The notes under the pieces were generated by a model that made no database searches, was not told where the DNA came from, and saw nothing but the letters and a program-made list of their open reading frames with translations. Shown here piece by piece: positions 16,056 through 27,264 of a stretch of 32,891 nucleotides of DNA (position 1 is the first letter of the stretch; each line of letters begins with the position of its first letter). Location of the stretch: assembly GCF_000313135.1 (NCBI RefSeq), contig NW_004457268.1, forward strand, positions 346,319 to 379,209, in the 5' to 3' direction. The position numbers and the translations under genes were made by a program. The DNA is from Acanthamoeba castellanii str. Neff (lineage: Eukaryota > Discosea > Longamoebia > Acanthamoebidae).

Positions 16056-19000
16056 TCAGTCCTCGGCTAAGTACTCCTGGTCAGCCTCCTCGTCCTCGGC
16101 TTCGCTCGCAAGCTCATCTCCCTCGTGCTCTTCCTCGTGCTCCTCTTCCTCTTGTTGCTCTTCCACTATGGTCGTTTCTTCCTCGCCAGCTCGCCGTTCA
16201 AAGTTGCTCAGCGCCTTTCTCGCAACTGCCTGCTTCCTGGCCTGCAACTGCTCTTGCAGCTGTCGCACCTCGGCTTTGAGTTTCTCCACTTCCAGCTGTT
16301 TCCTCTTCTCCGCTCGCAGGGTCCGTGAGTTGTCGGCTTCCGCATCCCCCAAACGCTTGGGAGAAGCGGACGGGGAGGCCGGGGAGTCAGGCGTCTCTTC
16401 GAACGCCTTGGGAAGGTATTTCTCGCACTTTCTGTAGTTGGTCGTGGTCAGTCATTCATTCGTAGGGAGGAAGAAAAAGGCCGTACTCGGCATCGGGTAG
16501 CTCCTGGAACAGCAACTGGATGACGGGCGAAGCGTAGCCAAACATCTCCGGTCCAGAGACAGAAACAGAAGGCTTCTTCTTGATCGCTTTGAGTGCCTGC
16601 AATAATAATGGGTGGGTGAGCCACACAGACAAGTCGAAGGAGGAGATTCGGGGGGGGGGTCGTAGGCTAGGTAGGAAACCTGCGTCCAGACGCCAGAGGA
16701 GGTGGAATGTTCGAACACCAGGTCTGGTCGGTCCTCGGGCGTCACACGGAAGGTAGGTGCATCATCACCGGTATCGACTATCTCCGACGTGTACGTGGTG
16801 TATTCTTCTGGATTGGAAATGGAGGGAAGGCGCCTGGAACACACACACACACACACACAACACACACGGTATCCTTTAGCCCGCGTGGACAAGCCACTCA
16901 AGGACACGTGGCGTATGTCTGTCAAACACCAACAGCCATCCCCCCCCCAGCCACCCACCACCGCACGTACTTGGTGCTCTTGAAGCCGGTGGGCCACAAG
17001 TACTGCTTGGAATGGAAGAGAGGACGATCCCACACTATCTCCCCGAGGTCGAGGATGGTGGTCCCCTTGACCGTGATCGGCAACACCGGATTGCCCGCCT
17101 CGTCCCTCGCCACGGGCCTGCGCGCGCAGTGAGCGAGAGGCGCGGAGAGTAAGAGGGAATGCGCACAGCAGCAGCAGCAGCAGCGAGGCTGGCGAGCCAG
17201 TCATACCGCACGGGAATGGGCCGGGCAGACGCAGACCCGAGCTTGCTCCGCTTCCGACTGGGTGTGCCGATATGGGCGACGTCTTCCTCGAGGGCTCCTT
17301 CTTCGCTTTCCTCCTCCGCTTCTCCCTCTTCCTCGGGCCGAGTCCGCTTCCGTCGCGGGCGAGACTCGGCGGTGGCGTCCGGCTCGAGCACCACATGACA
17401 GTAATAGCGCAACCTGCGTGTGGCGTGGTGTGGCGTGGTGTGGCGTGTGGGTCTCATCGTGGTGAGACCTTTGTTCGTTTGTTTGAGAACTCCAGGCGCG
17501 GTGGCCATTTGGAGCTCAGGGGTGGGAGGTGGGGGTGTGCCTGTTGAGGAGGGGAGATTTGTCCTCGACGAATTCGCGCAGGAAGAGCTCGCGCTGCTTC
17601 CGAGGGACGGGGCGGCCGTTCTTGGGCGTTTTGGTGTAGAAGACGCAGCCAGGGTCGTTGAGGAGTTCGTCCCACGTCCTCCCCGAGTTGCCGATTCCGC
17701 ATTCATCCACGGCGTGCAGGAGGGCCACGTCGTGTTCGCCTGGATACCACCACTGCGGCATCTTGCCTCGTGTCACCGCTCCCATCCGTTGCCTGAGGTC
17801 GGCACGCGAGAGCAGCTTATGCCTGTAGTCGAGGATATCGCCATACGTCAATCAGCATTCCGTGCCGCAGTCCTCCACCACCACCACCCAGCCACCACCC
17901 ACCACTCAGCCGCGGAAAGGGAGAGGTCACTCGAGTGAAACGAGGTCGGTTGGCTGGTTGTGGTTGGGAGCGAGGAACGTACCTCAACTCCTCCCATAGC
18001 GAGACCCGATCCAGGAGGCGATGGGCTATGATGGGGGAGAGCAAATAGGGGTTCTCCAGCGAAGTGACAGATGACGACGACGACGACGACGTGGTCGAGG
18101 CTTCGAAATCATCCGCCTCGTCGTCGTCGGCCTCGGACTCTGCCGGCTCGTCGTCTTCGTCCTCGCCGCCGTCGTCTGATCGCTCCTCGCCACCCACGTG
18201 GGTGGGAGCCACGTGGCCTTCGAGGTCTTCATGCTGCTGCAAGAGCGAACGAGAAGCGGATCGGGTGGATCTCTTGCCAGCTTTGGCCAGCCCGACGTAG
18301 GGGTTCGGGTACTCCTCGCACATCTTCCTGACGTAGGCCATGAGTTCGTCGTAGTAGTCCTCGCACGCTTCGTCGTCTTTGTTGACCAGCCGCGCCTTAT
18401 CGATGATAAACTCCCACCTCCCTGTTGGTTGGTGGGTTGGTGGGTTGGTGGGTTGGTGGGTTGGTGGGGTTGGTGGGGTTTGGTGGGGTTTGGTGGGTTG
18501 GTGGGTTGGTGGGTTGGTGGGTTGGTGGGTTGGTGGGTTGGTGGGTTGGTGGGTTGGTGGGTTGGTGGGTTGGTGGGTTGGTGGGTTGGTGGGTTGGTGG
18601 GTTGGTGGGTTGGTGGGTTGGTGGGTGAGTGGGGGTTGGTTGTGGGTGGGTGGAGGTTGGTAAGTGTGTTAGGGAGGGGGAGAGGTGGTCGCTGGAGTCG
18701 GCGTACGTACCAGGTCCGTAGGCCATGAGGGCGACGCGGAAGTCGCCGCGTTCACGCTTGCTCCAGAGTCCCCTTCTCTCCTCGAGGCGTTGGCGCTTGA
18801 CGGCCTGTCGCTGGTGGCGCTGCTGGAGGCGCTGTTCTCGCTCGTCCTCGCGCATGCGCTTGCGGTCTTCCTTGCTTTTGATTTTCTCCTGCCGCTGCCG
18901 CTCTCTCGCCTCGATGCGCAGCACCTTGTCGATGGTGTCCAAGAGGGCCTTCACACGCAGATTCAACACCCTTTTGGCCGGCCACTTGCTTGATGGAGTC

Positions 19001-27264: not shown

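Follow-up and report, generated by a model that had tools for sequence, protein, structure and literature searches.

A stretch of 32,891 nucleotides from the Acanthamoeba castellanii str. Neff genome (contig NW_004457268.1; hereafter the window) contains a minus-strand gene, spanning 27264..16056, whose 29 exons join into an open frame of 2494 residues with the terminal stop as its only stop. Of its introns, 26 are GT-AG and two are GC-AG, with the GC donors after 20364 and 17541. The features of the gene are as follows, in window coordinates:

16056..27264, minus strand: whole coding span, 29 exons, 2494 aa (hand-set model, match to protein P0001)
26481..26900, minus strand: bromodomain, residues 64-147, exons 2-3 (Pfam, 74 bits; BET-like by PDB comparison)
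25317..26696, minus strand: exon 3, with most of the bromodomain, an acidic linker and chromodomain 1, uninterrupted (exon model)
25737..25880, minus strand: chromodomain 1, about residues 348-395, boundaries set by eye (Pfam Chromo)
24491..25736, minus strand: linker joining chromodomains 1 and 2, long and for the most part Ala/Pro/Gln-rich, covering the last part of exon 3, exons 4-5 and the introns between them (sequence)
24110..24379, minus strand: chromodomain 2, residues 708-741, exons 6-7 (Pfam Chromo)
22645..24007, minus strand: SNF2 ATPase lobe 1, residues 776-1063, with DEMGLGKT and DEAH (Pfam, 280.3 bits)
21842..22387, minus strand: Helicase_C lobe 2, residues 1091-1204, with RAGGVGINL and QARCHRIGQ (Pfam, 85 bits)
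18309..18816, minus strand: HTH_CHD6-9-like region with WSKRERGDF, residues 1889-1961 (Pfam, 22.3 bits, cut-off 27)
17729..17752, minus strand: WWYPGEHD motif, residues 2094-2101, exon 24 (sequence)
16773..17083, minus strand: FYRN, residues 2245-2302, exons 26-27 (Pfam, 64.2 bits; match to the TBRG1 FYR domain)
16410..16757, minus strand: FYRC, residues 2308-2377, exons 27-29 (Pfam, 61.9 bits; match to the TBRG1 FYR domain)
16030..16035, minus strand: AATAAA hexamer right after the stop codon, a possible poly(A) signal (sequence)

We rebuilt the exon model from open frames and splice sites, setting the junctions by hand under the guidance of expected domain continuity. Exon calls of this kind might have merged an adjoining bromodomain-CHD gene and FYR gene; indeed, the first automatic splice search returned alternative paths of 40 and 30 exons, unlike the final model. 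Against such an artefact, however, stands the homologous protein P0001 (2495 aa, represented by 12 member sequences whose longest contig has 7634 nt), which was found only after the hand-set junctions had been fixed, and which is identical to the 2494-aa model across all 28 junctions, including both GC-AG junctions, apart from one extra Glu after residue 406. The same domain order also recurs in five further proteins (P0002 and P0004-P0007). The source code of P0001, 'lgn', presumably refers to Logan assemblies of public reads. Since 2495 codons and a stop need 7488 of the 7634 nt, the P0001 contig, judged by its length, has no room for the 28 introns and must represent a spliced transcript that runs from the bromodomain through FYRC. 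P0001 rules out two neighbouring genes joined by mistake, and we regard a merging artefact as extremely improbable; the predicted chain from bromodomain to FYRC is a single protein from one transcript. An earlier note on this DNA had described 29 exons in one frame, which holds on the minus strand with no break, at a length of 2494 rather than 2517 residues; separate transcripts, which that note had raised as the finding that would speak against it, are contradicted by the 7634-nt contig. As a separate observation, an 8-bp tandem repeat of 28 copies (18427-18653) lies in the intron that separates exons 22 and 23, which is 289 bp long.

Domains were called on the 2494-aa protein with Pfam profiles at curated cut-offs, with matches reported to E<=1. 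The bromodomain, the two chromodomains, SNF2, FYRN and FYRC, all named in the earlier note, score above their cut-offs, as does Helicase_C, with Chromo matching two stretches before the motor (64.1 bits), and the WSKRERGDF and WWYPGEHD modules listed there are both present in the translated chain. Among nine relatives scanned, HTH_CHD6-9 is above the cut-off in P0002, P0004, P0034, P0045 and P0015, below it in P0007, and unlisted in P0003, P0005 and P0006. The BRK domain, in which CHD6-9/Kismet proteins normally end according to the same note, gives no match in the 2494-aa protein at E<=1, and neither do the SET domain and the PHD finger; a KMT2-like SET protein is ruled out by the former of these two results. 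A search of the organism's own genome also gave no BRK match, but its controls gave none either. When compared with solved structures, the FYR part matches the TBRG1 FYR domain with an E value of 8.4e-22, and KMT2D with only 3.2e-4.

The methyl-lysine reading proposed in the earlier note is putative; at the position of one cage tryptophan of CHD1 chromodomain 1, this protein has a Lys. The bromodomain finds its best PDB matches in BRD4, polybromo and BRDT, and in the BRD4 alignment it retains the YN pair, whose Asn is the acetyl-lysine-binding residue of bromodomains. Given this BET-like match and the retained YN, acetyl-lysine reading by the bromodomain is plausible. We think it unlikely that the domain is instead a structural support; this is its reported role in KMT2B, where the bromodomain supports PHD3 and does not read acetyl-lysine (PMC8401916), but the PDB matches, the YN pair and the lack of a PHD finger match in our protein at E<=1 all argue against it here.

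Our search for proteins of similar architecture used residues 2080-2494, which returned three proteins including P0001, and the whole length of P0002, which matched 895 proteins, the best 120 of which, P0002 and P0001 included, were listed. FYR is present in 34 of these best 120 of 895 relatives, red algae included. Within a set of 121 proteins, the FYR profile marked 35 and the bromodomain profile 11, with these profiles having been built from 10 and six, respectively, of the same 121 proteins; six proteins have both domains (P0001, P0002, P0004, P0005, P0006 and P0007). Precomputed Pfam labels mark the same protein sets as both profiles, with P0073 carrying the FYRN label only. The five bromodomain-FYR proteins other than that of this gene have two bromodomains each, as opposed to one here, and two of the five have a PHD-like finger that scores below the Pfam cut-off. 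P0052, a member of the bromodomain branch, carries its bromodomain close to the C terminus. The earlier note had implied that the combination of bromodomain and FYR on a CHD protein was unique, which these five proteins contradict; it had also proposed looking for the architecture in other Amoebozoa, and we found it in the "chromodomain helicase hrp1" of the amoebozoan Planoprotostelium fungivorum (P0006), with bromodomain, chromodomains, SNF2, FYRN and FYRC in an order identical to that of this gene. P0006 differs in having two bromodomains, and its ATPase is 72% identical. We found no description of a CHD protein with FYRN/FYRC in the literature searched, which consisted mainly of titles and abstract openings and included few subscription journals. 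The architecture is shared with proteins already in databases, with no published description found in that literature.

FYR also occurs on relatives with no bromodomain match, namely in Galdieria (a red alga), in Cyanidiococcus, and in a transcript whose label names the ciliate Tiarina fusus, although this last label could be wrong if the transcript came from a mixed culture. The Galdieria and Cyanidiococcus CHD proteins (P0034, P0045) resemble the protein studied here in belonging to the CHD6-9 clade and in having a C-terminal FYRN-FYRC, and differ from it in the missing bromodomain match. Among the best 120 of 895 relatives, 53 are labelled as animal, with a BRK label in 46 and FYR in one, and FYR is found in 33 of the 67 that are not. 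The sole animal-labelled FYR protein among the matches listed, P0033 (Schistocerca), is probably contamination, since it clusters with P0029 and further FYR proteins and is distant from the animal rows. No FYR label was seen on the dictyostelid proteins P0025, P0035 and P0036, or on Pelomyxa or Entamoeba, among the matches listed. When the FYR part of P0015 was used as the query, six proteins were returned, two of them without SNF2 annotation; these large FYR proteins are P0122, a RING protein of Thecamonas trahens, and P0124 of Willaertia magna.

The ATPase shares 61.7-63.2% identity with five CHD6-9-type sequences from animals, and 48.6-51.2% with CHD1 (human and yeast) and CHD4. For the ATPase tree we picked 69 rows from 125, leaving out P0024, in which the domain is missing, and used human CHD1, yeast CHD1, human CHD4 and an SNF2 protein from the same genome (C79) as the outgroup. 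All 65 CHD6-9 rows form a clade to the exclusion of these four (100/100), which, with the difference in identity (62-63% against 49-51%), bears out the CHD6-9 affinity suggested in the earlier note; a CHD1- or CHD4-type identity is ruled out by the tree. Within the CHD6-9 clade, a 21-row clade (100/98) holds this gene, all six bromodomain-FYR proteins, five bromodomain-only proteins, Pelomyxa and Entamoeba, and the nearest named relative is Planoprotostelium, a placement that agrees with an amoebozoan origin; six animal rows, a fungus and one further row form an FYR-free clade (100/97). Judged by its sequence, the protein is a relative within the CHD6-9 clade rather than a typical member, because no tandem BRK was detected in it, while the BRK label is present on 46/53 of the animal-labelled rows listed. 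It has in common with CHD6-9/Kismet (CHD subfamily III) the chromodomains and an SNF2 motor of the same clade; the CHD6-9 helical region is matched weakly, below the Pfam cut-off. It differs in its added front bromodomain and rear FYRN-FYRC, with no BRK found. Subfamily III CHD enzymes are characterised in a 2026 review by SANT plus BRK domains (PMC13360762), and type III CHDs are said to be absent from plants and yeast (PMC5378177).

How the FYR tail came to be on these remodelers can be approached by comparing two trees. The FYR tree has 40 rows, comprising 38 of the 39 domains found (P0122 was dropped for its length) together with TBRG1 and KMT2D, and its bromodomain-branch CHDs (nine rows, 95/88) and red algae (five rows, 98/97) form groups; good support is limited to 10 of 37 inner branches, and several branches are long. 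The main groups are similar in the FYR and ATPase trees, pairwise ATPase and FYR distances are correlated (n=35 proteins, r=0.60, with 0/2000 permutations as high), and in 35/35 FYR proteins the start of FYR is located past 79% of the chain length. These three observations argue against repeated, independent fusions to CHDs of FYRN-FYRC taken from KMT2- or TBRG1-like genes, which would make the tail convergent. Repeated fusion does, however, draw support from the distribution of FYR, which requires 10 changes on the ATPase tree, from the rejection of a single clade of all FYR rows (p 5.7e-13, for a group chosen after the tree was viewed), from the presence of FYR on the Thecamonas and Willaertia proteins that have no SNF2 annotation, and from the FYR tree itself, in which P0073 joins TBRG1 and P0124 sits among CHD-borne FYR domains, such that the latter are not a clean group; P0017 lies apart from its ATPase neighbours, and long branches are present. 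With 10 changes, the ATPase tree alone does not settle gains versus losses, and rejection of one FYR clade agrees with losses as well as with repeated gains; a single clade of all non-opisthokont CHD6-9 rows, also chosen after the tree was viewed, is not rejected (p 0.352). On balance, we give repeated fusion little credence.

We infer instead that the FYR tail has long belonged to CHD6-9-type remodelers in protists and was inherited with the ATPase, based on its occurrence in Amoebozoa and Rhodophyta, and perhaps also in Alveolata, on the groups shared by the two trees, and on the constant place of FYR, and that bromodomains mark one branch of the remodeler family. More tentatively, FYRN-FYRC might be original to CHD6-9 in the ancestor of amoebozoans and red algae, with alveolates perhaps included, and possibly even in the last common eukaryotic ancestor, and might have been lost in animals, which have BRK instead; the meeting of CHD8 with KMT2/COMPASS would then be a split-up version of the same arrangement, and TBRG1 a possible remnant of fission. 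This last scenario is a possibility that we would place somewhat short of even. As the present sequences show, the CHD6-9-type motor exists in distant protists and red algae in another form, with FYR near the C terminus and sometimes with bromodomains. If the tail is ancestral, the chromatin machines behind human disorders (CHD7/CHD8, KMT2) would be linked by a shared ancestral design, and single-celled models could be used to ask what FYR does on a remodeler.

KMT2A and KMT2B are SET methyltransferases with no known SNF2 motor, in which FYR unites two taspase-1 fragments. Both (also MLL1/MLL2) resemble the protein described here in having FYRN-FYRC, with KMT2B reported to have a bromodomain as well, in one chromatin protein (PMC8401916, PMC7762615). 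Plant MBD9 similarly combines a bromodomain with FYRN/FYRC and is part of a remodeler complex, but it is described as a SWR1-complex subunit with MBD, PHD, DDT and WSD domains, not as an ATPase (PMC10451976). TBRG1/NIAM has the solved FYR domain closest to the one studied here, but what has been solved is a 146-aa chain of the FYR domain, and TBRG1 is reported as a partner of Myst2/Kat7 (PMC5557939).

We consider it likely that the protein is an ATP-dependent nucleosome remodeler of CHD subfamily III (CHD6-9/Kismet) type, with a bromodomain as reader and FYR as a docking module that is an old tail. In the mechanism that we propose, the bromodomain would anchor the enzyme at acetylated histones, the chromodomains would gate the SNF2 motor, the SANT/SLIDE-like region would touch linker DNA, and the CHD motor would, by analogy with the named families, slide nucleosomes, with the FYR module serving as a putative protein-docking platform for partners. 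KMT2A/B fragments are reported to join through FYRN and FYRC (PMC8401916, PMC7762615), and CHD8 is reported to bind WDR5/ASH2L/RbBP5 and to copurify with MLL complexes (PMC3936757, PMC10903457, PMC3528654), although the contact described there involves the WDR5/ASH2L/RbBP5 core rather than a FYR domain. FYRN/FYRC is listed as DNA-binding, not docking, in a 2010 survey (PMC2993927). That CHD6-9 and FYR-bearing KMT2 are separate animal proteins that meet, and that their counterparts are found in one chain here, is suggestive of a shared role, but is not proof of one.

A six-frame search of the genome found FYRN and FYRC at two places each: this gene and contig C200. At about 414-423 kb, with unsure ends, C200 has another CHD6-9-type gene, which carries FYRN-FYRC and chromodomains and whose CHD motor is 66.5% identical to that of this gene. 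In a self-test, a second exon finder recovered eight of the 29 exons of the present gene, and we therefore trust the C200 model only where it is guided by homology (chromodomains, motor and FYR). No bromodomain was seen on C200 in the tblastn pieces of three of 10 queries, or with the bromodomain profile in a six-frame search of 17 kb (best E 0.93, versus 8.7e-34 for the window as control), and neither the 16 bromodomain places found across the genome nor the 10 found with the bromodomain of this gene include one on C200. SET domains were found at 16 genomic places, none of them on C200 or C235; six-frame searches of this kind may miss domains split by introns. On the plus strand of the window, a divergent neighbour occupies 27486-29057 and about 30314-31521, with its first likely start ~220 bp from the start of this gene. 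In it, SNF2 matches come after an HSA domain (68.7 bits) in the same orientation, and the neighbour is perhaps one remodeler gene of SWR1/SRCAP/INO80 type, in which case two remodeler genes would lie head to head.
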